Shown here: positions 11,327 through 25,884 of the stretch, piece after piece
Position numbering within the stretch: the stretch's first letter is position 1
Layout of the letters: every line of letters starts with the position of its first letter
Source of the DNA: Alphaproteobacteria bacterium
Lineage (GTDB): Bacteria; Pseudomonadota; Alphaproteobacteria; Sphingomonadales; Kordiimonadaceae
Direction of reading: 5' to 3'
DNA: 40,843 nucleotides
NCBI GenBank assembly: GCA_006226495.1
Contig: SBGU01000042.1
Location: forward strand, 1-40,843
Notes under the pieces: generated by a model
What the model was told of the DNA's origin: nothing
Seen by the model: the letters and a program-made list of their open reading frames with translations, nothing else
The model's database searches: none
Position numbers and translations under genes: made by a program

Positions 11327-12991
11327 CTAGTTTGCTGCCTGCCTGATGCAAAGGTCCGCGCCGGTGGCAATGCCGCCGGCGATGTCTTCGATCTCGTGGC
11401 CATAGCGGCCCAGGATGCGTTCGCGGCGGATTTTCATCGTGTGGGTCAGGACCCCGTTTTCGATGGTCCAGGGTTCAGCGGCCATCAGGATGGCGCCGAT
11501 CTGGGCATGGCGTTCCTGCGCGGCATTGATGCCGCCGATCAGGGTGCGCAGGCCATGTTCGAACGCTTCGTCCGGCAGGCCGTGTGCCACCTCGCTGCGT
11601 ACCACAAGCAGCACCGGCTGTGGCAGGCCGTGGCCGACGATGACCGCCTGTTCCACCAGTTCCGATTCCAGCACCAGCGTTTCGATGGGGCCGGGCGCGA
11701 CATATTTGCCCTTGGCGGTCTTGAAGGTTTCCTTGACCCGGCCACGCAGGGAAATAAAGCCCTCGGCGTCGATCTCGGCCCGGTCGCCGGTATAGACCCA
11801 GCCGTCCCGGAAGGTTTCCGCCGTCTTGTCCGGCGCCTTGTAATAACCCAGGCAGGTGCCGCGCCCGCGTGCGATCAGTTCCCCTTCGTCGGTGACCCTC
11901 ACATCGATGCCGGCGATGGGCAGCCCCACTGCGCCGCGTTTTTCCGATCCGCGCGGTGTGACACAAATGGGCAGGATTTCGGTCTGGCCATAACCGTCAT
12001 GCAGGGAAAGACCAAACAGGTCGAACCATTCCTTGATGGCGGGTGGCGTGGGCGCGGTGGTGGACATCATGTGCTGCACGGTTGCGAGGCCCAGTTTGTC
12101 GCGGATGCCGGCGGCGACCATGGCGCCGTTTGGTCCCTGCAGCATGGCCTTCAGGTCCGCGGCATTGCCACCCGCGCCGGCGATCACCGCCTGCACCAGT
12201 TTTTCCCAGATGCGCGGCACACCGAAAAAATAGTCGGGCCTGGTGATGGTCAGGTCGCGGGTGAACGTGTCCAGCCCCTCGCCAAAAATGATGCTGCCGC
12301 CCGCCGCCAGCGAATGCAGGTGGATGACCAGCCGTTCCGCCAGATGCGCGAGCGGCAGGTAGGAAAAAAAGCGCCAGCCGCGTTCGGTGCCGGTGTTCAC
12401 CACCACGCCTTCGGTGGCTTCGGCCAAGGACTGAAGCGAATGCATCACGCCCTTGGGTTTGCCGGTGGTGCCCGAGGTGAAGATCACGGTCGCGCACACG
12501 TCGCGGTCCGGCATCGTCGGCAGGGGCAGGGCACCCCCCGCAGCCAACAGGTCGTCCCAGGTCATATGGCCTTCAGCCGGATCGATGCCGGGCAGGGTGA
12601 CAATGGTCACATGCGCGGGCACATGGGTCTTCACGGCCTGCCAGTTGGCGGCTTCACCCAGGAACAGCAGTTCGGTGTCTGAAAACTCCAGCACATACTG
12701 GAAGGTTTCCGGCCGCATGGTGGTGAAAACCGGTACGGTGTTCGCACCCGCGCGCAGGATGGCAAGGTCGGCCATGATCCAGTGCGCCCGGTTATTGGAC
12801 AGGATCGCCGCCTTGCGGCCCACACCCGGCAGGCGGCTGGCAATCGCGCTGGCGGCGGCTTCGACCGTCCGGCGCACGGTGGCCCATGTGTAGGGAACGG
12901 GCGTGCCGTCCTCAAGGTCGATCAACCAGTCTGTATCCGGCATCACGGTGGCCCAGTGTTCCAGATCTTCGAGTGCTGTGCGCAGTGCCAT
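11327..12991 (-). CDS. Acyl-CoA ligase (AMP-forming synthetase), last gene of the Atu-like operon
   Basis: A 554-residue adenylate-forming enzyme that activates a carboxylic acid with ATP and CoA. The P-loop motif IFTSGTTGKPKGVMHS is at residues 170-185, the YGQTE motif near 334, the YTGDRAEID hinge near residue 405, and a C-terminal TMKIRRERI block contains the expected catalytic-lysine region. It resembles long-chain (FAA/FadD15-like) and feruloyl-CoA-type synthetases. It is the last gene of the operon and plays the part AtuH plays in Pseudomonas, plausibly activating citronellic or geranic acid or a related branched acid. The substrate is inferred from context. Confidence 0.88.
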   Translation of the reverse strand: MALRTALEDLEHWATVMPDTDWLIDLEDGTPVPYTWATVRRTVEAAASAIASRLPGVGRKAAILSNNRAHWIMADLAILRAGANTVPVFTTMRPETFQYVLEFSDTELLFLGEAANWQAVKTHVPAHVTIVTLPGIDPAEGHMTWDDLLAAGGALPLPTMPDRDVCATVIFTSGTTGKPKGVMHSLQSLAEATEGVVVNTGTERGWRFFSYLPLAHLAERLVIHLHSLAAGGSIIFGEGLDTFTRDLTITRPDYFFGVPRIWEKLVQAVIAGAGGNAADLKAMLQGPNGAMVAAGIRDKLGLATVQHMMSTTAPTPPAIKEWFDLFGLSLHDGYGQTEILPICVTPRGSEKRGAVGLPIAGIDVRVTDEGELIARGRGTCLGYYKAPDKTAETFRDGWVYTGDRAEIDAEGFISLRGRVKETFKTAKGKYVAPGPIETLVLESELVEQAVIVGHGLPQPVLLVVRSEVAHGLPDEAFEHGLRTLIGGINAAQERHAQIGAILMAAEPWTIENGVLTHTMKIRRERILGRYGHEIEDIAGGIATGADLCIRQAAN

Positions 12992-13006
12992 GTCCGTTTT
13001 CCCCCG

Positions 13007-14188
13007 TCAGCCTTTCATCAGTTCCTGGGCGATGATGCCCTGCCGCACCTGGTTGGTGCCGGCGCCGATTTCCAGCACCTTGCCGCTGCGGTAAAGCCGG
13101 TTCACCTCGGTCTCGCGCATGAAACCCATGCCGCCATGGATCTGCACCGCATTGTCCAGCACCCGCATGATGGCGCGACCGGCATAAAGCGCGTTCATGG
13201 CCGTGCGCAGATGCACGGGGCCACGCCCGCCGCCGCCGCGTTCAAGATCGTTCACTTCCTTCAGCATCTGGTAGCTGGTGGCGCGCAGGGTTTCGATGTC
13301 GGTATACATGTCGGCAATCATGCCCTGCACAAGCTGGAACTGGCCGATGGCCTTGCCGAACTGCTTGCGGTCCTGCGCGTACTGGAGGCTCAGGTCAAGC
13401 GCCCGCTGCGCCATGCCGATGGACGACGAGCACAGGAGCGTGCGTTCGATATTCAGCCCGCTCATCACCACCGCGACACCGGCATTTTCGCCGCCCACCA
13501 GGTTGGCGGCCGGCACGCGGCAATCCTCGAACACCAGTTCACCGGTCGGGCTGCCACGCCAGCCCATCTTGTCCAGCTTCTGGGCGACCGCAAAACCCTC
13601 GAACTCCTTTTCGACAATGAAGGCCGAAATGCCGTGCGCCCCCGCAGCCGGGTTGGTTTTGGCATATACCAGAAGGATATCCGCCACCGGGCCGTTGGTG
13701 ATGAACATCTTGCGACCGTTCAAAATGTATTCGTCGCCGACACGTTTCGCCGTGGTGGCCATGGAGCCAAGGGCGTCCGAGCCCGCGCCGGGTTCCGTGA
13801 GGCCAAGGGCGCCGATGGCGCCGTCCACAAAACGCGGCAGGTATCTGGCTTTCTGGTCTTCGTTGGCGTTCCGCACGATATTGTTGATGCACAGGTTTTC
13901 GCTGGCGCCCCAGCTCGCGGAGAAACTGTGGTTCCAGTAGGTCAGCGCTTCGGCGATCAGGGCTTGGGAGATAAAGTCCAGCCCCGCACCGCCATATTGT
14001 TCCGGGATGGTCACGCCCAGAAGGCCGACCTCCTTCATGGCGCGATATGCGTCCGCGGGGAACCAGTCCTCGTCATCCATGCGGGCGATCAGCGGGTACA
14101 GTTTGTCCTCGCCGTACCGCAGGGCCATGTCGAACAGGCTTTGCTGTTCTTCCGAAAAGCCGAACTGTTTCAGGTTCGGCTGCATCAT
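13007..14188 (-). CDS. Acyl-CoA dehydrogenase (isovaleryl-CoA-dehydrogenase-like active site)
   Basis: FAD-dependent acyl-CoA dehydrogenase of 393 residues. It has the FAD/substrate motifs GALGLTEPGAGSD and MFITNG, and the C-terminal QIHGGMGFMRETEVNRLYR block. The usual catalytic Glu of the YEGT motif is absent (the segment reads EIGAGTNQ); instead SGLNIERTL places E248 where isovaleryl-CoA dehydrogenase has its helix-G catalytic Glu, which suggests a branched-chain acyl-CoA substrate. I chose the ATG at 14188, which overlaps the preceding BKACE stop (ATGA); an in-frame ATG at 14197 adds only three residues. It is the second dehydrogenase of this operon. Confidence 0.9.
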   Translation of the reverse strand: MMQPNLKQFGFSEEQQSLFDMALRYGEDKLYPLIARMDDEDWFPADAYRAMKEVGLLGVTIPEQYGGAGLDFISQALIAEALTYWNHSFSASWGASENLCINNIVRNANEDQKARYLPRFVDGAIGALGLTEPGAGSDALGSMATTAKRVGDEYILNGRKMFITNGPVADILLVYAKTNPAAGAHGISAFIVEKEFEGFAVAQKLDKMGWRGSPTGELVFEDCRVPAANLVGGENAGVAVVMSGLNIERTLLCSSSIGMAQRALDLSLQYAQDRKQFGKAIGQFQLVQGMIADMYTDIETLRATSYQMLKEVNDLERGGGGRGPVHLRTAMNALYAGRAIMRVLDNAVQIHGGMGFMRETEVNRLYRSGKVLEIGAGTNQVRQGIIAQELMKG

Positions 14189-15063
14189 GCCGCCCATTTC
14201 ATTTTGGCAAGCGCGGCGCGGGTTTCTTCGGGGCTTGTGATCTCGCGCCCCGCATTGCGTGCGCACTGCGCCAGCGCCGCAATCATCTGGCCGTTCGACG
14301 TCGCCTTCTCACCATCCGGCAGGTAGAAACAGTCCTCGAGGCCAGTGCGCAGGTTGCCGCCCAGGTCGGCCACACGCTGGTGCACCGGCCAAACGTCCTG
14401 CCGGCCGATCAGGGTCGCCTGCCAGGGGCTTTCCGGATGTTTATATTTGATCAACAGCGGCAACAGGTCGGCGTCGCACGGCATGCCGGAGGCCACACCC
14501 ATCACAAAATTATAGTCGGCATGGGCCATCATGCCATTTTCGAGATAGAGCCCGACCGAACGCACGATACCGACATCGAAACATTCAAATTCGGGGATGA
14601 TGTCGTTGGCCTTCATGGTGGCCAGCATTTCTGCGACCTTCTCGACCGGATTGTCGAACACCATCGGCTGCCAGGCCCAACTGCCATCCTTACGGGTTTT
14701 CAGATAATTCAGGCTGCCGGCATTCAAGGCCGCCATCTCGGGTTTGTTGTGTGCAAGATACTTGAGCACCGCACCCTGGTCGCGGCCCACCACACCGGTG
14801 GTCATGTTGATCACGACACCGGGACAGGCGGCGCGGATCGCGTCGTTGATTTCGTGTGCGAGGGCGCCATCCCAACTGGGCAGATGTCCCTTGCCGGGCG
14901 TCTGCTGCCGGTAATGGCAATGCATGATGGTGGCACCTTCATCAAAGGCCGCCTTGGCCTCTGCCGCCATCTGTTCGGGGGTCACCGGCACATGATGCTG
15001 GGTCGGGTCCGTCAGCACGCCGGTCAGCGCGCAGGTCAGGATGGCTTTGTCGGGGGTGCTCAT
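14185..15063 (-). CDS. Beta-keto acid cleavage enzyme (BKACE, DUF849)
   Basis: A 292-residue TIM-barrel enzyme. BKACEs condense a beta-keto acid with acetyl-CoA and cleave it to acetoacetate and a new acyl-CoA. The metal ligands are visible: H48 and H50 in MHCHYR, and E243 in GGNLRTGLED, with R239 and D244 matching catalytic R226 and D231 of the lysine-fermentation enzyme Kce. Other family blocks present are INMTTG and LNAGSLNY. Kce Glu14, which contacts the substrate amino group, aligns with L17 here (TGVL instead of TGAE), pointing to a non-amino, probably hydrophobic substrate. It overlaps both neighbours by ATGA, so it is an integral operon member. Confidence 0.88.
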   Translation of the reverse strand: MSTPDKAILTCALTGVLTDPTQHHVPVTPEQMAAEAKAAFDEGATIMHCHYRQQTPGKGHLPSWDGALAHEINDAIRAACPGVVINMTTGVVGRDQGAVLKYLAHNKPEMAALNAGSLNYLKTRKDGSWAWQPMVFDNPVEKVAEMLATMKANDIIPEFECFDVGIVRSVGLYLENGMMAHADYNFVMGVASGMPCDADLLPLLIKYKHPESPWQATLIGRQDVWPVHQRVADLGGNLRTGLEDCFYLPDGEKATSNGQMIAALAQCARNAGREITSPEETRAALAKMKWAA

Positions 15064-16973
15064 GTTTCGGTTCCTTTGATGCTGGCCAGATGCTGCCGGC
15101 CCTTGACTTGTGTGCCGGCGCTGACCGCGATGTCCGCGATTGTGCCGTCAATATCGGCGCGCACCTGATGTTCCATTTTCATGGCTTCGATCACGACGAT
15201 CAGATCGCCGGCCTTGACCAGGTCACCGGCCCTGGCGTTCACGGCCACCACCTGCCCGTCCATCGGGGCGCGCAACTGGCCGGTGCCGCCCCTGGCCTGT
15301 TTTTCCGGCGGCGCGAGGGTGACATCGGTTGCCGCCACGTGCCCCGTGGGCAGGTCCAGCCAGACATGGCCGGCGGCGAGGGTGGCAACCGACAGGTCGG
15401 CTTCGGGGAAGGTCGCTTCCGCCGTGCCGTCCGTCACGCTGATCCGCCAGCCATCCGGTGTGCGGGTGTGTGTCAGGCTCAGGGCAAAGCGGGTGTCGCC
15501 AACCAGGATGGTGCGCCGTTCGGGCACATGATGCACGGTGCGCCAGCCGGCCAGGTGCGGGTTCGGGAAACGTTTCAGGCCATCAAGCAGGATGGCCGCC
15601 GCCGCCATGGCCGCTTCATGGAAACCGGGGGCAGGGGGCGTGAAGGCTGCCGTGTCCAAGGTGCCCGTGCGGTGGCTGGCGGTCCGGAAGCCCTCCCCCG
15701 CCAGAATGTGCGCCAGATAGGCCTTGTTGGTGGTCACACCGGCGATATGGCTTGTGGCCAGCATGCGCGCCAGCTTCTGCAAGGCTTCGTCGCGCGTGCG
15801 GCCATGGGCGATCAGTTTTGCCAGCATGGGGTCATAGAAGGGGCTGACCGTATCACCGGCCACCACGCCACTGTCGGTGCGGCCTTCATGCGAGAACGCG
15901 AGCCGGTGCAGCGTGCCGGTTTGCGGCAGGAAACTGTGCGCCGGGTCTTCGGCATACAGGCGGGCTTCGATGGCATGGCCGGTGAAGGCCACATCTGCCT
16001 GCCCGAACGCCAGTTTTTCGCCGCCCGCGATGCGAATCTGTTCGGCGACAAGATCAAGGCCGGTAATGGCTTCGGTGACCGGGTGTTCCACCTGCAGCCG
16101 GGTGTTCATTTCAAGGAAATAGAAAGCGCCGTCTTCATCCACCAGAAACTCGACGGTGCCGGCACCCGTGTAACCAACGGCTTTCGCCAGCGCGACGGCT
16201 GCATCATGCAGGCCGGTGCGCGTGGTGTCCGATATCGTCGCACAGGGCGCTTCTTCCAGCACCTTCTGGTGCCGGCGCTGGGCCGAACAGTCGCGTTCGC
16301 CCAGATGCAGCACGGTGCCATGGCTGTCGGCCAGTATCTGCACTTCCACATGCCGCGCGGGCGCGATCACCCGTTCGAGAAGTACGTCGCCGCTGCCGAA
16401 TGCGGCCCCGGCTTCGCGGCGCGCGGCGGCAAGGGCTTCATCGAACCCGTCAAGGCTTTCAACCTTGCGCAGGCCGCGCCCGCCGCCGCCTGCCGTGGCC
16501 TTGATCATCAGGGGCACGCCCAGCTTTTCGGCCTCGGCCTTCAGGTTGGCGTCCGAGCGGTCGGCGCCGTCGAAACCGGGCACGCAGGGCACGCCGGCGG
16601 CCTGTGCGATCAGCCGCGCTTCGCGCTTGTCGCCCATCTTGGCAATCACATCTGCCGTGGGGCCCACGAACACCAGCCCGGCTTTGGCCACGGCTTCGGC
16701 GAAGGCCGCGTTTTCGGACAGGAAACCATAACCCGGATGGATGGCATCGGCGCCGGCGTCCGCCGCAGCGGCAATGACCCGGTCGATGTTCAAATAGGAC
16801 TGGCCCACAGGCGAGGGGCCGATATGCACAGCGCGGTCCGCCAGTTGCACATGCTGTGCGGTACGGTCGGCGTCGGAATAAACAGCGACGGTTTCAATGC
16901 CCATGGCGCGGGCCGTGCGGATGATGCGCACCGCAATCTCGCCCCGGTTCGCGATCAGAAGGCGGCGGATCAT
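15060..16973 (-). CDS. atuF: Biotin-containing acyl-CoA carboxylase alpha subunit (geranyl-CoA carboxylase type)
   Basis: A 637-residue biotin carboxylase/biotin carrier subunit. It opens with LLIANRGEIAVRI, has the GGGGRG ATP-grasp loop, the RDCSAQRRHQKVLEEAP and EMNTRLQVEHPVTE motifs, a middle BT-like linker domain, and the biotin site AMKM with K599. It carboxylates biotin and works with the beta subunit at 18936-20543. The size and layout fit methylcrotonyl-, geranyl- and propionyl-CoA carboxylases alike; I favour geranyl-CoA carboxylase (AtuF) because of the partner subunit and gene order. Four-base overlaps join it to the hydratase and to the BKACE gene. Confidence 0.85.
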   Translation of the reverse strand: MIRRLLIANRGEIAVRIIRTARAMGIETVAVYSDADRTAQHVQLADRAVHIGPSPVGQSYLNIDRVIAAAADAGADAIHPGYGFLSENAAFAEAVAKAGLVFVGPTADVIAKMGDKREARLIAQAAGVPCVPGFDGADRSDANLKAEAEKLGVPLMIKATAGGGGRGLRKVESLDGFDEALAAARREAGAAFGSGDVLLERVIAPARHVEVQILADSHGTVLHLGERDCSAQRRHQKVLEEAPCATISDTTRTGLHDAAVALAKAVGYTGAGTVEFLVDEDGAFYFLEMNTRLQVEHPVTEAITGLDLVAEQIRIAGGEKLAFGQADVAFTGHAIEARLYAEDPAHSFLPQTGTLHRLAFSHEGRTDSGVVAGDTVSPFYDPMLAKLIAHGRTRDEALQKLARMLATSHIAGVTTNKAYLAHILAGEGFRTASHRTGTLDTAAFTPPAPGFHEAAMAAAAILLDGLKRFPNPHLAGWRTVHHVPERRTILVGDTRFALSLTHTRTPDGWRISVTDGTAEATFPEADLSVATLAAGHVWLDLPTGHVAATDVTLAPPEKQARGGTGQLRAPMDGQVVAVNARAGDLVKAGDLIVVIEAMKMEHQVRADIDGTIADIAVSAGTQVKGRQHLASIKGTET

Positions 16974-17764
16974 TGCACGTCCTCCTGCCAGCTTGCCTTG
17001 CGGCGCTCGCGGAAAGCGGCGGTGCCTTCCTGTCCCTCGGGCCCCATCAGCGCATCGGCAAACAGGTCGGCGGCATGGTCAAGCGCGGGGGCGTCCACGC
17101 CCGGTGCCAGTTTCATCAGGAGCGCCTTGGTGGCCCGGTTGGCGCCGGGTGCCGCTTTCAGGATACCGGCCAAAGTGGCGGCAAGACGCGCTTCCAGCCC
17201 ATCCGCATCCGCTTCCACATGATGCACAAGGCCAAGCGCCTTGGCTTCGGTGCCGTCGATCATCTGGCCGGTGAGCGCGAGGCGCCGGGTGGCCGTGAGG
17301 CCGATACGCGCCAGCACGAAGGGCGCGATCTGTGCGGGTACAAGACCCACGGTCACTTCCGGCATGCCGAAGCGGCAGCCAGCGTGCGCAATGGCGACAT
17401 CGGCCACGCAGGCAAGGCCAAAACCACCGCCAAGCGCCGCGCCTTCCAGTACCGCCACCAAGGGTTTCGGGAAGGCCTGTGCGACTTCCAGCATTTCGCC
17501 GAAGCGCCGGTTGCCGGCCCATATGGCGTCCCTGCCATCCATGCCCATGCCCTTCAGGTCGCCGCCCGCCGAAAAACAGCCGCCGGCACCCTTGAGCACA
17601 AGCGCACGCACTGTATCGTCCGCCGCAGCGGCATCAAACGCCGCAATCAGGCCGTCGACCATCGCGGCATTCATGGCGTTTTTCACGTGGGGGCGATTGA
17701 GGGTCACGGTCATCACCGCGCCCTTGCGTGCCACCAGAACCGGGTTTTCCTGAAGCTCGGTCAC
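16970..17764 (-). CDS. atuE: Enoyl-CoA hydratase, isohexenylglutaconyl-CoA hydratase type
   Basis: A 264-residue crotonase-fold protein. The oxyanion-hole motifs are GGCFSAGGDLK and GAALGGGFGLA, and the FGMPEVTVGLVPAQIAPFVL block carries one catalytic Glu; the second classical Glu is not obvious, as that region reads ATRRLALTG. In the Atu pathway this step hydrates the carboxylated glutaconyl-CoA product; the leucine-pathway homologue LiuC hydrates 3-methylglutaconyl-CoA. Its place between the dehydrogenase and the carboxylase alpha subunit is the same as atuE in Pseudomonas. It overlaps the alpha subunit gene by four bases. Confidence 0.82.
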   Translation of the reverse strand: MTELQENPVLVARKGAVMTVTLNRPHVKNAMNAAMVDGLIAAFDAAAADDTVRALVLKGAGGCFSAGGDLKGMGMDGRDAIWAGNRRFGEMLEVAQAFPKPLVAVLEGAALGGGFGLACVADVAIAHAGCRFGMPEVTVGLVPAQIAPFVLARIGLTATRRLALTGQMIDGTEAKALGLVHHVEADADGLEARLAATLAGILKAAPGANRATKALLMKLAPGVDAPALDHAADLFADALMGPEGQEGTAAFRERRKASWQEDVQ

Positions 17765-17774
17765 CCCTTTGGCC

Positions 17775-18923
17775 TCACTTCTTGTCCATGCCCATCAGGC
17801 GGGTCAGGATGCGCAGCATGGTTTCGTCCGAGCCGCCGCCGATGCTTGAAAGCCGGCTGTCGCGGTACGAACGCGCGACCGGGCTGTCCCACATGAAGCC
17901 CATGCCGCCCCAATATTGCAGGCAGGAATCCGACACTTCGCGCGCCAGCCGCCCGGCCTTCAGCTTGGCCATGGACGCAAGGCGAAGCACATCGATGCCG
18001 TTGATATATTGCTCGACCGCCGCCCAGGTCAGCGCCCGCAGGGCTTCAACCTCGGTCGACAGTTCGGCAAGCCGGTACTGCACCACCTGGTTATCCAGCA
18101 CGCTGCCGCCAAAAATCTGGCGCTCGCGGGTATAGTCGATGGTGGCCTTGATGGTTTTTTCCATGCCCTTCGGTCCCAGCATGGCGGCGCACAGGCGTTC
18201 TTCCTGGAACTGCATCATCTGCATGCGGAAACCGTCGCCTTCACGCCCGATCAGGTGGCGCTGCGGCACCCGCACATTATCAAGGAAAATCTGCGCCGTG
18301 TCGGACGAGCGCATGCCCAGCTTGTTCAGGGGTTCCGAAAAGCTGACTCCCCTGGTTTTGGTCGGCACCACAATCAGGGACTTGTTCTTGTGCGCGGGCG
18401 CGTCGCCGGTGTTGGCGAGCAAACACAGGAAATCGGCCTGGGTCGAGTTGGTGATCCACATCTTGGTGCCGTTGATCACATAATCGTCGCCGTCCTTGAC
18501 CGCGTTTGTCTTGATCGCCGCCACGTCAGACCCCGCATGCGGTTCGGAAACCGCGATTGAACAGACCATGTCGCCGGCGATGGCCGGGGCCAGGAATTCG
18601 GCGCACAGTTCGGGGCTGCCAAACCGGGCAAGGGCAGGGGTGGCCATGTTGGTCTGCACGCTGATGCCCATGGGCACACCGCCGCAGTTGATGCCGCCCA
18701 GTTCCTCGGCCATCACCATTTCATAGGAATAGTCGAGGCCCAGCCCGCCATAGGCTTCGGGTTTCGAAATGCCGAGAAGGCCCAGGTTGCCCATTTTCTT
18801 GAACAGTTCATGCGCCGGGAAAATGCCGTCCTTTTCCCATTCGTCGACATGGGGGTTGATCTCGTCTTCGACAAAACGCGCGACGGTACGGCGCAGTTCG
18901 TTATGTTCATCGGTAAAAAGCAT
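17775..18923 (-). CDS. atuD: Acyl-CoA dehydrogenase, citronellyl-CoA dehydrogenase type
   Basis: A 382-residue FAD-dependent dehydrogenase. It has CSIAVSEPHAGSD and MWITNS for FAD and substrate, and ends with YRDSRLSSIGGGSDETML, so the YEGT-type catalytic Glu is absent. FQEERL (E242) is placed like the helix-G Glu of isovaleryl-CoA dehydrogenase, as expected for beta-methyl-branched substrates such as citronellyl-CoA. It lies directly after the carboxylase beta gene (12-base gap) and before the hydratase (10-base gap), the atuC-D-E order. An isovaleryl-CoA role is the main alternative. Confidence 0.83.
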   Translation of the reverse strand: MLFTDEHNELRRTVARFVEDEINPHVDEWEKDGIFPAHELFKKMGNLGLLGISKPEAYGGLGLDYSYEMVMAEELGGINCGGVPMGISVQTNMATPALARFGSPELCAEFLAPAIAGDMVCSIAVSEPHAGSDVAAIKTNAVKDGDDYVINGTKMWITNSTQADFLCLLANTGDAPAHKNKSLIVVPTKTRGVSFSEPLNKLGMRSSDTAQIFLDNVRVPQRHLIGREGDGFRMQMMQFQEERLCAAMLGPKGMEKTIKATIDYTRERQIFGGSVLDNQVVQYRLAELSTEVEALRALTWAAVEQYINGIDVLRLASMAKLKAGRLAREVSDSCLQYWGGMGFMWDSPVARSYRDSRLSSIGGGSDETMLRILTRLMGMDKK

Positions 18924-18935
18924 GGTCGGTCCTTC

Positions 18936-20543
18936 CTAGAAACGGGCGACGCCGAAAGTGTTGGGCCGGGTGGTGCGGCTGTCCGCATCCCGGCAGATAT
19001 CAAGAAGATAGGCGAGCACACGGCGGGTATCGCGCGGGTCGATAATGCCGTCGTCCCACAGGCGCGCGCTGCCATAAAGCGCGGTCGAACAGGCATCCAT
19101 CTGCGCGGCGGTCATGGCCTCAAGCTTCGACAGCGCCTCGGTGTCCGGCTCCTTGCCTTCGCGCAGCGCCTTTTCGGTGCCAACGATCTTCAGCACCATG
19201 CCGGCCTGTGCGCCGCCCATGACGGCGGTTTTCACATTGGGCCAGGAAAATACGAAGCGCGGGTCGACACCACGGCCGCACATGGCATAGTTGCCGGCGC
19301 CGTAACTGCCGCCGATATGGATGGAGATGCGCGGCACACGCGCGTTGGTGACCGCCTGAATGAGCTTCGAGCCGTGTTTGACCACGCCGTCGGCTTCCGA
19401 CTGTTTGCCGACCATGAAGCCCGTGGTGTTATGGAGGAAAATGATCGGGATGCCGGCCTGATCGCACAATTGCACAAACTGCGCGGCCTTGGTGGCGCCT
19501 TTGGGCGTTATCGGGCCATTGTTGCCGATGATGCCGATGGTGTGACCTTCAATGGCGGCATGGCCACAGACGGTCTGGCTGTCATAGTCATTCTTGAAAT
19601 CAAGGAAGTCGGAACCGTCGCACACACGCGCGATCACTTCCCGCACGTCATAGGGTGTTTTGGCCTCTGCCGGCACGATGCCGATCAGTTCATCCGCGCC
19701 GTGGAGTGGCATATCAAACGAACGTTCGGTAATATTCTGGTTTACCCAGGGCAGGCGCGCCATGATCTCGCGGGCATACCGGATGCCGTCGGCGTCGTCT
19801 TCCGCCAGATATTCGGCGGTGCCGGTTACTTCGGCATGCAGTTCGGCGCCGCCCAGTTCCTCGTCATTGGCGATTTCGCCGGTGGCGGCCTTCAGAAGCG
19901 GCGGGCCGGCCAGGAACACTTTCGAACGCCCGCGCACCATGACCACATAATCACTGAGGCCGGGCTGGTAGGCGCCGCCGGCGGTCGAGCTGCCGTGCAC
20001 CACGGTGATCTGCGGGATGCCGGCGGCGGACAGCCGGGCCTGGTTTGCAAAGCTGCGCGCGCCTTCAACGAACATGTCGGACACATGGCTCAGGTTGGCG
20101 CCGCCGCCTTCCATCAGCCCGACAACCGGCAGCCGGTTTTCAAGCGCGATATTTTGCAGGCGCAGCGATTTCCACAGGCCCGACGGCGCGACCGTACCGC
20201 CCTTGACCGCACTGTTGGACACAATGACCATGCAGCGTTTGCCGCTCACGTACCCGATGCCGGCGATAGAACCACCGGCGCCGGAGCCATCCTTGTCGTC
20301 ATACATCTTGTAGCCCGCGAGCGCGGACAGTTCGAGGAACGGGCTGCCGGGGTCCAGAACCAAGGCCAGCCGTTCTTTCGGCAACAGTTTGCCGCGTTTT
20401 TCAAACAGCAGACGTGCCTTTTCCTGCGCGGCGGCTTTCAGGTCCTCAATGGCAGCGAGTTCGTCCAGTTGCGCCTGCATCGCAGCAGCATTGGCCTGGA
20501 AGCTGGCGCCCGTGGGGTCGATCTGGCTTTCGATTGCCGGCAT
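18936..20543 (-). CDS. atuC: Acyl-CoA carboxylase beta subunit (carboxyltransferase), geranyl-CoA type
   Basis: A 535-residue carboxyltransferase with both crotonase-like halves: GGSIAGIGYV and GSSTAGGAYQPGLSD in the N half, and GGSYGAGNYAMCGRG with FSWPN in the C half. In methylcrotonyl-CoA carboxylases the stretch after SGGANL contains a longer loop and a Phe (191 in the P. aeruginosa enzyme) that closes the acyl pocket; here the loop is about three residues shorter and Gly161 aligns with that Phe, the change reported for geranyl-CoA carboxylase. The alignment was done from memory by eye. AAGGA lies before the ATG, three bases after the SDR stop. Confidence 0.85.
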   Translation of the reverse strand: MPAIESQIDPTGASFQANAAAMQAQLDELAAIEDLKAAAQEKARLLFEKRGKLLPKERLALVLDPGSPFLELSALAGYKMYDDKDGSGAGGSIAGIGYVSGKRCMVIVSNSAVKGGTVAPSGLWKSLRLQNIALENRLPVVGLMEGGGANLSHVSDMFVEGARSFANQARLSAAGIPQITVVHGSSTAGGAYQPGLSDYVVMVRGRSKVFLAGPPLLKAATGEIANDEELGGAELHAEVTGTAEYLAEDDADGIRYAREIMARLPWVNQNITERSFDMPLHGADELIGIVPAEAKTPYDVREVIARVCDGSDFLDFKNDYDSQTVCGHAAIEGHTIGIIGNNGPITPKGATKAAQFVQLCDQAGIPIIFLHNTTGFMVGKQSEADGVVKHGSKLIQAVTNARVPRISIHIGGSYGAGNYAMCGRGVDPRFVFSWPNVKTAVMGGAQAGMVLKIVGTEKALREGKEPDTEALSKLEAMTAAQMDACSTALYGSARLWDDGIIDPRDTRRVLAYLLDICRDADSRTTRPNTFGVARF

Positions 20544-20546
20544 GGC

Positions 20547-21434
20547 CTAGTCCTTGCCCCGAAGCGCACGCGGCGGGGTATAGCGGTGGAAACCCTGGTA
20601 ACTTTCGCTGTTCTTGGCACCCTGTGGCGGGAAAAAGGGGCTGAACAGGCTGCCGGCACCATCGACCCGCAGGCTCGCGCCCGAAATGAAACCCGCGCCG
20701 TCCGACAACAGGAAACAGATGGCGCTCGAAATCTCCGCCTCGGTCGCGATGCGCCCCAGCGGCACAAAATTCTTGAGCTGCGGCAGGATTGCCTGCACGC
20801 CGGGGTCGGTGTAGGTATCAAAGCCCGACGAGGCCACCCAGCCGGGCGCCACGCTGTTTACACGGATGCCGAACCGGCCCCATTCCACCGCCGCGGTCTT
20901 GGTGAAATTGTCGCACGCCGCGCGCGCGGCACCTGAATGGCCCATGGTCGGCATGCCCGACCAGAAATCGGCGGTTATGTTCACGACCGCGCCGCCCGTA
21001 TCCTTCATTGACTGGTTCACCAGTTCGCGGGTCACGTTGAAGGCGCCGACCACATTGTTCCGAAGCACGGTTTCAAAACCGTTGGTGGATATTTTTTCGA
21101 GCGGCGAGGGATATTGCCCGCCCGCATTGTTGACAAGCCCGGTGACCGCGCCTTCCTTGAGGATGTCAGCAATGGCGTCCCGGACCGCGCCTTCGTCGCG
21201 GATATCAAAAGCGCGCCAACCGGCCTTGCCGCCGTCGTCCGTGATCTCCCCAACCACGGTTTCCAGCTTCTCCTGTTTGCGGCCGGTGATGATGACATCG
21301 GCGCCCAAGGAAGCCAGTTCGTGCGCCGTGCAACGGCCAATGCCGCTGCCGCCACCGGTGACAATGATGCGCTGGCCCGCGAACAGGTCTGCGCGAAAGA
21401 CGGAGCGATACCCGCTCATTCCCTCTGTTGGCAT
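20547..21434 (-). CDS. SDR-family oxidoreductase resembling trans-2-enoyl-CoA reductases
   Basis: A 295-residue short-chain dehydrogenase with the nucleotide motif TGGGSGIG (residues 26-33) and NNAGG (102-106). The usual catalytic YxxxK is absent: the segment reads GHSGAARAACDNFTK (S167 and R171 in those places), the pattern of peroxisomal trans-2-enoyl-CoA and 2,4-dienoyl-CoA reductases. It is the first gene of the operon and corresponds in place to atuB of Pseudomonas. The ATG at 21434 follows AAGG with good spacing; the frame is open to 21494, but that would cover the operator palindrome. A role in interconverting enoyl-CoA and saturated acyl-CoA intermediates is inferred. Confidence 0.87.
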   Translation of the reverse strand: MPTEGMSGYRSVFRADLFAGQRIIVTGGGSGIGRCTAHELASLGADVIITGRKQEKLETVVGEITDDGGKAGWRAFDIRDEGAVRDAIADILKEGAVTGLVNNAGGQYPSPLEKISTNGFETVLRNNVVGAFNVTRELVNQSMKDTGGAVVNITADFWSGMPTMGHSGAARAACDNFTKTAAVEWGRFGIRVNSVAPGWVASSGFDTYTDPGVQAILPQLKNFVPLGRIATEAEISSAICFLLSDGAGFISGASLRVDGAGSLFSPFFPPQGAKNSESYQGFHRYTPPRALRGKD

Positions 21435-21471: not shown

Positions 21472-21491
21472 ACAAGCAAGCGCTTGGTTGT
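21472..21491. promoter_or_regulatory. Probable TetR operator between the Atu-like operon and tetR
   Basis: ACAAGCAAGCGCTTGGTTGT is a 20-base palindrome with one mismatched pair, centred between 21481 and 21482 (core CAAGCGCTTG). It lies 37 bases before the SDR start on the minus strand and 31 bases before the tetR start on the plus strand. A TetR dimer bound here could silence both genes and be released by an acyl-CoA ligand. The site is seen directly; the binding partner is inferred from position. Confidence 0.75.
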
Positions 21492-21522
21492 CAACCGTGA
21501 AAGGATCGGCTAGGGTGGCGGC

Positions 21523-22134
21523 ATGAGCAAAACACAGGCAGTTTCGGTGGATAGTGTCGCGCCGCTTGGGCCCATCAGCCCGGCGAAAGCGCGGATTCTG
21601 GCGGTCGCGGTCGACCTGTTCCATGAAAAGGGTTACGAGCGCACCACGGTCAGGGACATTGCGGAACGCACCGGCATCCTGTCCGGCAGCCTGTTCCATC
21701 ATTTCAAAAGCAAGCAGGAAATCCTGTATACCGCCATGGCGATGACGACTCAGGCCATGGGCCAGTCGGCGGAAGCCGCGGTCACGGGGGTCGACGACCC
21801 GGTTGCGCAGTTGAAGGCGCTTATCCTGATGGAACTGAATTCCATCCACCGGGAAGACGGCCATGCGGCCTATGTATTGGTGGATGAATGGCGGAGCCTG
21901 GACCCGGAACACGCGGCGGCGGTCCTGAAACTCAGGGACGGGTCCTATGAACGCTGCTGGATGGCCGCCCTTGAGGGCTGTGCCGATAAAGGCATCCTGA
22001 AGAACAACCCGCGCATTGCCCGGCAACTTCTCCGGGGCGCCCTGGCCTGGACCCGCACCTGGTTCCGCGCCGATGGCGCCCTGACCCTGCCGGGCCTTGC
22101 CGACGAAGTGTGCGGCACCTTCCTGAAATCCTAG
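21523..22134 (+). CDS. TetR-family regulator of the Atu-like operon
   Basis: A 203-residue TetR regulator with the DNA-binding domain at about residues 20-66 (ILAVAVDLFHEKGYERTTVRDIAERTG, then GSLFHHFKSKQEIL). The C-terminal domain, a ligand pocket and dimer interface, resembles acyl-CoA-responsive TetR proteins. It is divergent from the eight-gene operon across an 88-base gap that contains the palindromic operator, the usual arrangement of an autoregulated local repressor; AtuR plays this part in Pseudomonas. REP-like repeats follow its stop. Confidence 0.9.
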   Translation: MSKTQAVSVDSVAPLGPISPAKARILAVAVDLFHEKGYERTTVRDIAERTGILSGSLFHHFKSKQEILYTAMAMTTQAMGQSAEAAVTGVDDPVAQLKALILMELNSIHREDGHAAYVLVDEWRSLDPEHAAAVLKLRDGSYERCWMAALEGCADKGILKNNPRIARQLLRGALAWTRTWFRADGALTLPGLADEVCGTFLKS

Positions 22135-22377: not shown

Positions 22378-23154
22378 TCAGAAAATACCGCTCAGGGTCA
22401 CACTCAGGCCGATGGCGAACAGGGCCATCAGGGCGATGCGGCGATAACCGCCCGAGCCATATTTTTCAAACAGCCGGAAACCGATCCTGTTGCCGGCCAG
22501 CATGCCCGGCAGCGCCAGCGCGAACAGGGTCAGTTCCTTCACGCCAATGATGCCGCTGATCGCATAACTGCCGGTCGCAAAAATGGCGGAAAACAGGAAA
22601 AAGCCCATCAGGAACGCGCGGCTGACCACCGGGTTCGAAAAGGCGGCCATGGCATAGATGATGACCGGCGGTCCGGGGATCGCGAGCGCCCCGTTCAACA
22701 GGCCCGACGCAAGGCCCGTCAGCGCCGCTTTCCAGCCGCCTGACGCACTGTCCTTCGGTTTGTAGCGGGCCAGCAGGAAACAGGCACCCATCACCGAAAT
22801 GCCGATGGCGGCGCGGAAACTGTCGGGGCTGATAACCAGGAGGATATAGGTGCCCAGCATGGTGCCCACGGCAGCCATGCCGGTCATCCAGCCCATCACG
22901 CGCCAGGGCACATCCGGCATGTAGGATTTGAGGTTCTGGAGCGAGATGGTGAGCGTGAGCAATACCACGATGCTGACCGCCGTGGTGGGCAGAAGAAACA
23001 GGCTCATCACCGGCAGGGCCGCCAGCGCAAAGCCGAAGCCGGTGAAGGCGCGCAGGATGGCGGCGACAAAAATCGCCAGCGCCATGCCAAGCGCCGCCCA
23101 GAGGCTGAGGTCGCCCAGAAGGTCACCCGTCAGGCTGGTCAGGAAATCGCTCAT
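22378..23154 (-). CDS. TSUP (TauE/SafE) family membrane permease
   Basis: A 258-residue integral membrane protein with about eight spans and the two-repeat layout of the TSUP family. The first repeat has ILRAFTGFGFALAALPVMSLFL and the second GLASGLLNGALAIPGPPVIIYAM, the glycine/proline-rich signatures of the family. These proteins move sulfite, sulfoacetate, other sulfonates or organic anions; the substrate cannot be read here. It lies 18 bases after the amidohydrolase stop in the same direction, so it may be co-transcribed with the amidohydrolase and BASS transporter. Confidence 0.88.
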   Translation of the reverse strand: MSDFLTSLTGDLLGDLSLWAALGMALAIFVAAILRAFTGFGFALAALPVMSLFLLPTTAVSIVVLLTLTISLQNLKSYMPDVPWRVMGWMTGMAAVGTMLGTYILLVISPDSFRAAIGISVMGACFLLARYKPKDSASGGWKAALTGLASGLLNGALAIPGPPVIIYAMAAFSNPVVSRAFLMGFFLFSAIFATGSYAISGIIGVKELTLFALALPGMLAGNRIGFRLFEKYGSGGYRRIALMALFAIGLSVTLSGIF

Positions 23155-23172: not shown

Positions 23173-24939
23173 TCAGGCCGCCTGGCCAAGCCGCACCAGC
23201 CGGCCGGGCAGGGCGCCTGTCAGTTGGTCATTTTCAACCACCGGCACGCCGCCCACGATGGTGGCGACATAGCCTTTGGCCGCTTGCAGCAGGCGTTGGC
23301 CACCCGCAGGCAGGTCCTTTACCATGTGGGGCGCATAAAGCCGCAGGTTTTTATGGTCGATCACGTTGATGTTAGCCTTCTGGCCCACAGCGATGCGGCC
23401 CCGGTCGTGGAAGCCGACATAATCGGCGATGTCGCTGGTCAGCATCTTGACGGCGCGTGCGAGCGGGATCTGCGCTCCGGCCTTGCGGTCCCGCGCCCAG
23501 TAGCTGAGCAGATAGGTCGGGAAACTGGCATCACACACTGTGCCCACATGGGCGCCGCCGTCCGACAGGCCCATGATCGACTGCGGGTGGCTCATCATCG
23601 TATGCACGGCATCATAATTCAGGTTGGTATAATTGTAGATCGGGAAATAGATGAATTCCTCGCCATCTTTCTCGAGCAAAATGTCATAGATTTTGCCCAG
23701 CGGCTTCTGGCCTTCGGCTTCCGCCATCTTGTAAACCGACTGGCTGACCGGCTGTTCATAGTCCGGGTTTTCACCCAGCTTGAACATCTTGCAACTGATG
23801 AAATCGATCTGCGCCAGCAACAGGTCGGCAATCGGCGGGATGGCTGTGCCGTCGCCCGCCATCTTTTCCGATGTTTCGGTCAGAAGCCGGGCCTTGAAAT
23901 CCGGGTCGCGCATGATGGCCACCCGTTCCGACAGCGGCAGATGGCTGATCTTCTTGTAGCTCGGGAAGCCGATGAAGGGGTGGAAGGTGCACTGGAGGCC
24001 AAGGATGACCCCGATGCCGCGCGGCGCCACCTGCAGGCGCATGTTGATGCCCTTGTCCCTGGCGGCTTCGGCGCGCGCCATGATCTTTTTCCACTGGTTG
24101 GGCGCAAAATCCCGCTGCATCAGGGACAGGGAAAAAGGCTTGCCGCCCGCCGCGCCGGCGAAAGCTTCCAGAAGGTCGAATTCCCGGTCGAAGGCGGTTT
24201 CGTCGCCGCGCTCCAGGTCGAAATCATTCACCGCCTGCAACACACCATGGTCCACGTCCCGGAAGGCTTCGGCGATGCCGGCCAATTCCTCGCGCGTGGC
24301 TTCGGAGGCGGGTGTCCAGTCGCCGTCCGCGGTGCGGTGCACGTCCGACCGGCCGGTTGAAAAACCGACAGCACCGGCCTGAAGCGCAGCGCGGGTCAGA
24401 TCGCGCATTTTGGCGATATCGTCGGGCGTGGCCTTTTCGTTATAAAGTGCGCGGTCACCCATCACATAAACCCGTAACGGATCATGCACCACCTGGGTCG
24501 CGAAATCGATCGCGTGCGGGAAATCGATGGCATTCATATAGTCCGGGAAGCTTTCCCAGTTCCAGGTCAGGCCCTCGGCGAGCGCGGTGCCGGGGATATC
24601 CTCCACCCCTTCCATCAGGCGCACCAGCCGGTCGCGGTCGTTTTCATGCACCGGGGCGAAACCGACACCACAACTGCCCATCACGGCGGTGGTCACACCA
24701 TGGTTCACACTGGGCTGCATGTCGGCATCCCACGAAACCTGCCCGTCATAATGGGTGTGCAGGTCCAGGAAACCGGGGGTGACGATATGGCTGGTGGCGT
24801 CGATCATGCGCGCTGCACTGTCCGAAATGTCGCCCACGGCGGCGATGATGCCGTCCTTGATGGCGACATCGGCGGTGAAGGCGTCGCCGCCATTGCCGTC
24901 ATAAATGCTGCCGCCCTTGATGATCAGGTCGTATGCCAT
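23173..24939 (-). CDS. N-acyl-D-amino-acid deacylase family amidohydrolase
   Basis: Metal-dependent amidohydrolase of 588 residues. It starts [15 protein letters not shown], then [13 protein letters not shown] with H61 and H63, [10 protein letters not shown] with C90 (the D-aminoacylase cysteine ligand), and late [10 protein letters not shown] with the catalytic Asp. The ATG at 24939 has a strong GGAGGAAA ribosome site (24943-24950), so independent translation is likely. However, the frame continues without a stop into the upstream BASS transporter, making one 903-residue frame as sequenced; a G7 tract at 24965-24971 explains this. D-aminoacylase, dihydropyrimidinase-like or other amide hydrolase activity is possible; the natural substrate is unknown. 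Confidence 0.85.
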
Positions 24940-25884
24940 CAGATTTCCTCCGTAACGGTTTGTCGGGGGGGCACCGTCCTGTGCGTCCTTGATGCGCAGG
25001 AAACCGGTCAGCACAAAGCCGCCGATCAGGTGCCACACGCTCCATGTGGCGAGAATGAGGGCCGCGCTGCCGAGGCCCTTGAACTGGCTGAGGATGATCA
25101 GAAGCCCCAGCCCGGAATTCTGGATGCCGACCTCAAAGGTCAGCGCCCGCGCTTTTGCGCGATTGTTCAGGAACAGCCGTCCGGTCAGGCTGCCGGTCAG
25201 GAAGGCCGCGGCGTTGTGCAGGATCACAATCGGCAGGATCGTGGCGCCAAAATCGGCCAGCAGGTCCATGTTGCGCGTGATGCCGACCACCACGAGGGCA
25301 AGCAACAGCAGCACCGCGAGCGGCAGGCAGATTTTCAACAAACGCCGCGCGAGCGCCGGCATGAAATGCGCCACCGCGATGCCGGCCAGCAGCGGCAGCA
25401 ACAGGGTGGTGCTGGTCTGGGCGATAAAGGCCGCGCGGTCGACATCGATGGTTTTCACCAAGTCGCGTGTCGGGCCATAAAGCCCGGTCCAGAACAGGAT
25501 CGCGAGCGGCAGCGCGGCGGCGGAAAACAGGCTAGAACAGGTGGTCAGCGCCACCGAATAGGCGGTGTTGCCGCCGCTCAGGCGTGTATAAAGGTTCGAG
25601 ACATTGCCGCCCGGGCAACAGGCCACCACCAGCATGCCAAGCGCAATGCCCGGCGCGGGATTGAGAAGCAGGATCAGCGCGAGGGTCACGAGCGGCAGCC
25701 CGACAATCTGGGCCAGAAGGCCCACGGCCATGCTGCGCGGGTGGGTTTTCAGGAAACCGAAGTCGGATGTGCGCAAACCCAGGGCCACGGAAAACATCAT
25801 GAAGGCAAGCGCAATGGTCAGCCCGAGTTGCGTGCCGCTTTCCATCGCCACCACGGCGTCATTGATGCCGGTGCCTGCTGCCAT
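24940..25884 (-). CDS. Bile acid:sodium symporter (BASS) family transporter, open into the amidohydrolase
   Basis: About 315 residues with roughly nine to ten membrane spans and the BASS motifs CCPGGNVSNLYTRLSGGNTAYSVALT and EVGIQNSGLGLLI. Family members import bile acids, pantoate, pyruvate or other organic acids with sodium. The ATG at 25884 has GGGAGGG upstream. The coding frame does not stop before the amidohydrolase ATG; removing one C from the C7 run near the end would create a TGA overlapping that ATG (TGATG). I therefore list it as a separate transporter that is, as sequenced, fused in frame. It is divergent from the AraC gene. Confidence 0.8.
24965..24971. other. G7 homopolymer that decides fusion or separation of two genes
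   Basis: Seven G residues on the plus strand (C7 in the coding sense). With seven, the transporter reads in frame into the amidohydrolase. With six, the transporter would end at a TGA (24941-24939) that shares its last base with the amidohydrolase ATG. This may be a sequencing or assembly length error, a real indel, or a slippage site; the sequence alone cannot tell these apart. Confidence 0.7.

Follow-up and report, generated by a model that had tools for sequence, protein, structure and literature searches.

The closest described counterpart of the locus reported here is the atuABCDEFGH operon of Pseudomonas, for which gene names and order are given in excerpts of PMC4847356. A second related system is the Liu operon of leucine and isovalerate degradation, represented in Pseudomonas by liuRABCDE, which includes the gene for LiuE (PMC4097962, in excerpt). 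Which enzyme performs the cleavage in acyclic terpene degradation is disputed, the lyase being AtuA in the former paper and LiuE in the latter, a review. A third relevant group is the BKACE/Kce family (PF05853, DUF849), whose members accept various beta-keto acids and convert a beta-keto acid and acetyl-CoA to an acyl-CoA and acetoacetate, according to excerpts of PMC11961710. Here we describe a window of 40,843 bases, which is the whole of contig C9 in a Kordiimonadaceae genome of 4.32 Mb in 60 contigs, and which carries what its sequence identifies as an Atu-type operon with a BKACE gene built into it. Comparison with related loci points to this BKACE standing in for AtuA, which is the main new result and goes beyond the first-pass annotation of this DNA.

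The operon resembles that of Pseudomonas in having a divergent TetR-family gene followed by genes for a short-chain dehydrogenase/reductase (SDR), a geranyl-CoA carboxylase (GCC) beta subunit, an acyl-CoA dehydrogenase, a hydratase and a carboxylase alpha subunit, in the same order as in the AtuA-bearing loci L133 to L141. It differs in lacking atuA and the second SDR gene (atuG), and in carrying a BKACE gene after the alpha subunit gene, followed by an isovaleryl-CoA-dehydrogenase-like gene (dehydrogenase 2) and a ligase gene. With the Liu operon it shares the carboxylase, hydratase and dehydrogenase classes, whereas the Liu carboxylase is of the methylcrotonyl-CoA carboxylase (MCC) type and its lyase, LiuE, is encoded within the operon. 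The eight minus-strand genes (SDR, carboxylase beta, dehydrogenase 1, hydratase, carboxylase alpha, BKACE, dehydrogenase 2 and ligase) are spaced by 3, 12, 10, −4, −4, −4 and 15 bases, in agreement with the order and tight spacing of the first-pass annotation; the 4-base overlaps are those of hydratase with alpha, alpha with BKACE, and BKACE with dehydrogenase 2. Pfam reported SDR, Carboxyl_trans, acyl-CoA dehydrogenase (twice), ECH_1, biotin carboxylase with Biotin_lipoyl, BKACE and AMP-binding domains for these proteins, and no AtuA (PF07287) or HMGL-like (PF00682) domain among the eight. This agrees with the earlier statement that no AtuA- or LiuE-like gene is present; a hydroxymethylglutaryl-CoA (HMG-CoA) lyase is encoded outside the operon, on contig C29 (291 bits against an NCBIfam cutoff of 246).

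Carboxylase type and family of the BKACE

The beta subunit of the window scored 824 bits against 5ikl (GCC beta) and 523 against 3u9r (MCC beta). Excerpts of Jurado et al. (PMC4673880) give a diagnostic rule in which GCC has Gly where MCC has Phe, MCC having in addition a three-residue insertion just before this position; the Gly marks only space for a larger acyl group. The window has Gly161 at the column of GCC Gly162 (a match that assumes that chain residue 1 is residue 2), in the context FVEGARS and without the insertion. The other early genes of the operon were assigned by homology. For the SDR, the best match in the PDB was 6lln (“Putative dehydrogenase involved in catabolism of citronellol”) at 368 bits, the next scoring 170, and homologues with 56 to 61% identity occur in 17 of 29 AtuA-type loci. 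The hydratase matched 4zu2 (putative isohexenylglutaconyl-CoA hydratase) best, at 249.5 bits, against 86.7 for the methylglutaconyl-CoA hydratase 1hzd, and its second-best NCBIfam model was gamma-carboxygeranoyl-CoA hydratase, under cutoff (170.9 against 426). Dehydrogenase 1 is 65 to 70% identical to the dehydrogenase encoded beside the GCC beta gene in L133 to L149 (16 AtuA loci and one truncated locus). The alpha subunit, with MCC alpha 3u9s as its nearest structure and no chain named GCC alpha among the matches listed, does not discriminate between the two types by its sequence.

The beta subunit was also used to search 397 Pseudomonadota genomes, the window's own included, and 60 regions were examined: all 56 with at least 538 bits apart from the window, and 4 of the 11 with 504 to 509 bits, taken as MCC controls. 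A tree was built from 81 rows, consisting of the window, loci L038 to L043, 54 survey regions (the 60 less 6 that were redundant), and 20 of 80 loci from a scan of named genomes described below. The window falls in a starred set of 29 rows, of which 18 belong to loci with AtuA, 9 to loci with BKACE, 1 to a locus with neither and 1 to a truncated locus. The diagnostic Gly is present in 36 of 37 BKACE, 28 of 29 AtuA, 9 of 9 “neither” and 2 of 2 truncated rows, L064 and L157 having Ser instead. Phe and the insertion were found in three of the four rows picked as MCC; the fourth, L191, has neither feature and nests among the GCC-like rows. These results support the Atu-type assignment made in the first-pass annotation.

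A duplicated leucine (Liu) operon, which could be proposed from the shared gene classes, the isovaleryl-CoA-dehydrogenase-like dehydrogenase 2 and the proximity of the alpha subunit to MCC alpha, is hardly credible. The genome has a separate MCC-type carboxylase locus (900 bits to MCC beta, 495 to GCC beta), which argues that the window operon does not serve the leucine pathway, and the beta subunit of the window is of the GCC type; this candidate was rejected. The beta subunit does not fall with Liu enzymes, an outcome that would have spoken against the first-pass annotation; dehydrogenase 2, however, has the isovaleryl-CoA dehydrogenase 4o5m as its best PDB match (347 bits).

The BKACE of the window scored 259 bits against PF05853 (gathering cutoff 24.8; E = 5.9e-77), and fell under the cutoff of every NCBIfam BKACE model, including the Kce equivalog NF052387 (170.5 against 382 bits). 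In a tree of 36 rows chosen for diversity, in which long branches were flagged, the Atu-linked BKACEs form a single clade against 14 other BKACEs (support 100, starred), with 29 to 36% identity to the others compared. Residues H48, H50, E160, R239, E243 and D244 are invariant in all 103 Atu-linked rows examined (the window, L038 to L043, the 80 named loci and 16 survey loci; 98 are distinct and some genomes are represented twice). They align with Kce H46, H48, E143, R226, E230 and D231, which we take to have metal-binding and catalytic roles. In BKACE15 of Paracoccus the catalytic base is a Glu, E171 (excerpts of PMC11961710); judging from spacing only, it may be the equivalent of E160 in the window. 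Unlike the other members compared, the window protein has Ala (Ala112) at the position of Kce T106, a difference weighed below. Leu17, at the position of Kce E14, was considered as a hydrophobic marker of the clade and discarded, Ile or Leu being found there in 11 of 13 other BKACEs, the 13 being those of 14 comparison loci that passed the filter used.

Linkage to carboxylase genes and exchange with AtuA

A BKACE with 78 to 92% identity to that of the window was found in 6 of 58 relatives (59 genomes searched, the window's own included). The core order from SDR through beta, dehydrogenase, hydratase and alpha to BKACE is kept in all six, dehydrogenase 2 in five and the ligase in three, and this recurrence argues that the operon is not a chance arrangement. 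A scan of named genomes, made by BKACE alignment alone, gave 232 confirmed loci, of which the best 80 were examined. Their hosts are Kordiimonadaceae-type bacteria, Parvularculaceae, Oceanicaulis, Bradyrhizobium, Rhodoferax and other Burkholderiales, Rhodocyclales, gammaproteobacterial metagenome-assembled genomes (MAGs) and one myxococcal MAG. Of these best 80 loci, 78 contain one or more of the genes for carboxylase beta, carboxylase alpha and dehydrogenase 1, the remaining two being contigs 3.1 and 4.4 kb long. For 74 of the 80, the neighbouring match, at most 1.5 kb from the BKACE, is the alpha or the beta gene. The best 80 contain no match to AtuA or HMG-CoA lyase within the sequence covered, up to 10 kb per side and often shorter. 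Lineages differ in the genes around BKACE and GCC, with extra dehydrogenases and different ligases. With GCC-type genes so regularly nearby, the idea of BKACE as a chance neighbour was rejected.

Among the 56 GCC-like beta loci of the survey, 29 have AtuA, 16 have a BKACE of this clade, none has both and 11 have neither, two of the latter (L142 and L171) being cut by contig ends. A naive Fisher test of this exclusion on 54 loci, which ignores the kinship of loci, gives p = 9.7e-8. On the best beta-subunit tree, obtained by a quick method and with long branches present, the AtuA/BKACE label changes at least 7 times. In L150 the BKACE sits between the TetR and SDR genes, the slot occupied by AtuA in L133. 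Because the two genes never occur together at these 56 loci, the label has changed repeatedly, and the slot is swapped in L150, the BKACE most likely replaces AtuA, as far as gene content can tell. Furthermore, no BKACE of the Atu-linked clade was found in any of the 29 genomes with an AtuA locus; the other BKACEs in them have at most 36% identity, or there are none. Conserved linkage in the six relatives and in the 78 loci, together with exclusion at the locus, thus supports the placement of the BKACE in the pathway by the first-pass annotation, and extends to other genomes the finding of a DUF849 gene inside Atu-like operons.

An overlooked AtuA in the window was considered and rejected for the operon. 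Elsewhere in the genome, contig C40 encodes a distant AtuA-family (DUF1446) protein of 460 amino acids (L205:9285-10667), with 72 bits to PF07287 and no NCBIfam match.

Proposed chemistry and its alternatives

An HMG-CoA lyase mechanism is expected to yield acetyl-CoA and a free 3-oxo acid, and not acetate and a 3-oxoacyl-CoA. A BKACE uses just these two compounds as substrates. On balance we think it probable that the locus is an Atu-type operon in which BKACE takes the place of AtuA and a lyase acts before it, the compounds degraded being acyclic isoprenoids or other large beta-methyl-branched acyl-CoAs. From homology and pathway knowledge, the ligase, dehydrogenase 1, carboxylase and hydratase would convert the acid to a 3-hydroxy-3-alkylglutaryl-CoA. 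The HMG-CoA lyase encoded elsewhere would split this by retro-aldol cleavage into acetyl-CoA and a free 3-oxo acid, which would be 7-methyl-3-oxooct-6-enoate if geranyl-CoA is the substrate. The BKACE would then convert this unstable acid and acetyl-CoA to acetoacetate and an acyl-CoA two carbons shorter (5-methylhex-4-enoyl-CoA). Dehydrogenase 2 may open the next round of beta-oxidation towards 3-methylcrotonyl-CoA, to be followed by the Liu pathway. For the acyl transfer of a BKACE, the free 3-oxo acid would be a more suitable substrate than the CoA ester. Acetoacetate could be used by the products of two adjacent CoA-transferase-family genes that the genome has on contig C48.

The same architecture may serve a substrate other than geranyl-CoA, either a longer isoprenoid acid (farnesyl or phytol-derived) or another beta-methyl-branched acid. 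This is a reasonable possibility that we hold somewhat short of probable, and it is compatible with the proposed lysis and acyl transfer, chain length being all that differs. It draws on the diagnostic Gly, which signals only room for a larger acyl group, and on the lineage-variable gene content with its extra dehydrogenases and different ligases. The beta subunit, SDR and hydratase, in contrast, are most similar to citronellol and geranyl enzymes.

Several observations weigh against the proposed lysis and acyl transfer with BKACE in the place of AtuA. At the level of gene content, L184 has the beta subunit and BKACE with no further operon gene in the 20 kb read, and 11 of the 56 GCC-like loci (12 of 57 with L191 included as GCC-like) have neither gene. 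The phylogeny-aware test of exclusion is weak: in 7 independent pairs BKACE was opposite to AtuA in 3 to 6 and parallel in none, with a median p of 0.125, and the attempt at a phylogeny-corrected proof was thus underpowered. Away from the locus, AtuA-family matches were found in 3 of 29 BKACE genomes, drawn from 30 of the 80 named loci, two of them in frames of more than 600 residues, and a strong one occurs in 1 of 23 BKACE genomes of a second set (G196). Within the protein, the Kce T106 position is Ala in 103 of 103 Atu-linked rows, while the 13 other BKACEs compared all have Ser or Thr there, and the acid group may therefore be bound differently. Two genomes of one genus with BKACE-type loci, G091 and G145, gave no HMG-CoA lyase match at E up to 1e-15. 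Finally, in the published schemes the lyase products are acetate and a 3-oxoacyl-CoA (excerpts of PMC4847356 and PMC4097962), for which no BKACE would be needed, and acetate release also appears in excerpts of PMC7794910.

Since AtuA-family matches exist elsewhere in some BKACE genomes, exclusion is a property of the locus and not an absolute rule of the genome; complete genome-wide exclusion was rejected as too strong, also in view of G206, a “neither” genome that has an Atu-linked BKACE as well, with both families away from its carboxylase locus. Of the 11 “neither” genomes, all but G217, which has weak matches only, encode a strongly matching AtuA-family protein elsewhere; in one of the 11, G404, a second carboxylase locus bears AtuA (L187). 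In the second set of BKACE genomes, weak AtuA-family matches were found in G000, G266 and G360. The AtuA-family frame of G196 has 458 residues, compared with 586 to 613 for the AtuA of the 29 loci. The copies in G196 and G206, in frames of 458 to 468 amino acids away from GCC loci, possibly have a different function, to judge by their length.

Seven GCC loci without AtuA or BKACE nearby (L151, L168, L169, L172, L176, L178 and L181) were also inspected. Six of these loci carry an extra acyl-CoA dehydrogenase, and a strongly matching AtuA-family protein is encoded elsewhere in all but one of the seven genomes.

The distribution of HMG-CoA lyase was surveyed in 60 genomes with the lyase of the window genome as query and E up to 1e-15. 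A match was found in 57. Sorted by the type of their carboxylase locus, these are 34 of 36 BKACE genomes, 14 of 15 AtuA genomes and 9 of 9 “neither” genomes, G404 being counted among the last while also having an AtuA locus. A universal need for the lyase is thus not upheld. G091 and G145 (loci L180, L182, L199 and L200) are both listed as 100% complete and have MCC at 70% identity. Their sole HMGL-like matches are in large frames of 543 to 585 residues, and the open reading frames (ORFs) near their MCC (L199 and L200), from rough gene calls, include no lyase match. As they have MCC without a lyase match, another enzyme, or BKACE, should cleave HMG-CoA there. The third genome without a lyase match, G164, is of the AtuA type (L155) and has no MCC-like beta subunit, the MCC query matching it at the GCC locus alone, with 48%.

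This lyase-free genus, which would fit poorly with a BKACE acting after lysis, leads to a different assignment of the cleavage step. The BKACE might perform the whole C–C cleavage, from 3-hydroxy-3-alkylglutaryl-CoA to acetoacetate and a shortened acyl-CoA, without an HMG-CoA lyase. The 3-hydroxy-3-alkylglutaryl-CoA is formally the aldol adduct of the usual BKACE substrates, and for R = methyl the net reaction would be HMG-CoA to acetoacetate and acetyl-CoA. Moreover, AtuA, the protein replaced, is itself the enzyme named lyase in excerpts of PMC4847356. The ground for this reading is one genus, in which a non-homologous lyase is possible, and an HMG-CoA lyase match is present in 34 of the 36 BKACE-type genomes. 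We know of no BKACE that acts on a tertiary alcohol. On this evidence we regard such a reaction as rather unlikely. Equally doubtful is its extension, in which the Atu-linked clade would be a new kind of lyase, acting on 3-hydroxy-3-isohexenylglutaryl-CoA (HIHG-CoA) and, in lyase-free genomes, on HMG-CoA, with AtuA acting in this cleavage too. If true, it would end the dispute over the lyase in the breakdown of acyclic terpenes.

It is improbable that the BKACE, while part of the operon, works on a side reaction such as the salvage of a short 3-oxo acid. The fold is common to enzymes of other function (cis-epoxysuccinate hydrolase and ObcA), and the breadth of beta-keto acids taken by BKACEs would allow for such a role; the exchange with AtuA and the tie of a single clade to GCC-type genes speak against it. 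Under the favoured reading, with lysis followed by BKACE-catalysed acyl transfer, this widespread BKACE and its exchange with AtuA suggest that the real intermediates of the disputed step are acetyl-CoA and a free 3-oxo acid. The swap also assigns to AtuA a function that can be tested, and suggests what compound a whole clade of BKACEs may act on.

In the open-licence literature, none of the papers listed has the DUF849 or Kce name beside geranyl-CoA, citronellol or atuC; the survey of the BKACE family and some of the Atu literature lie outside this search, so that an earlier mention there is possible. “Terpene” appears alongside each of the two names in one paper (PMC10971088 and PMC12918008), in a context that is unrelated in the excerpts of PMC10971088.

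Operon features, candidate operator and neighbouring genes

Table 1. Genes and candidate regulatory element of the Atu-type operon (positions in the window)
Feature	Position	Strand	Basis
AMP-forming acyl-CoA ligase; accessory	11327..12991	−	PF00501 and PF23562; in 3 of 6 relatives
Acyl-CoA dehydrogenase 2, isovaleryl-CoA-dehydrogenase-like; accessory	13007..14188	−	PDB match 4o5m; in 5 of 6 relatives
BKACE, Atu-linked clade; proposed AtuA replacement	14185..15063	−	PF05853
Biotin carboxylase and biotin carrier, alpha subunit, AtuF position	15060..16973	−	PF00289, PF02786, PF02785, PF00364
Crotonase, AtuE-like hydratase	16970..17764	−	PDB match 4zu2; ECH_1
Acyl-CoA dehydrogenase 1, AtuD position	17775..18923	−	PF02771, PF02770, PF00441
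Carboxylase beta, geranyl-CoA-carboxylase type, AtuC-like	18936..20543	−	PDB scores, diagnostic Gly
SDR, AtuB-like (citronellol-catabolism dehydrogenase type)	20547..21434	−	PDB and locus comparison
Candidate promoter/operator: TTGACA, then partial palindrome around CAAGCGCTTG	21473..21494	−	22-base identity across loci
Divergent TetR-family regulator, AtuR position	21523..22134	+	PF00440 and PF17932

The longest ORF of the SDR begins at 21494, with 21434 as the probable start. The nearest NCBIfam model of the ligase is FadD11, with a score below its cutoff, and the protein carries AMP-binding_C_3; the correspondence in role to atuH that the first-pass annotation proposed is tentative. L133 and AtuA loci like it also have a divergent TetR gene next to the operon. 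Upstream of the operon, the 22-base element TTGACAACCAAGCGCTTGCTTG is identical at 22 of 22 bases in all seven loci compared (the window and L038 to L043). Its 17-base core occurs at a single place in the window when both strands are searched with up to 3 mismatches allowed, and the element is perhaps the site of the divergent TetR protein.

Beyond the regulator, a single minus-strand ORF (23173-25884) fuses a sodium/bile-acid-symporter-like domain to an amidohydrolase domain. It adjoins a TauE-like gene (22378-23154), and both are also found beside the operon in L038 and L041.

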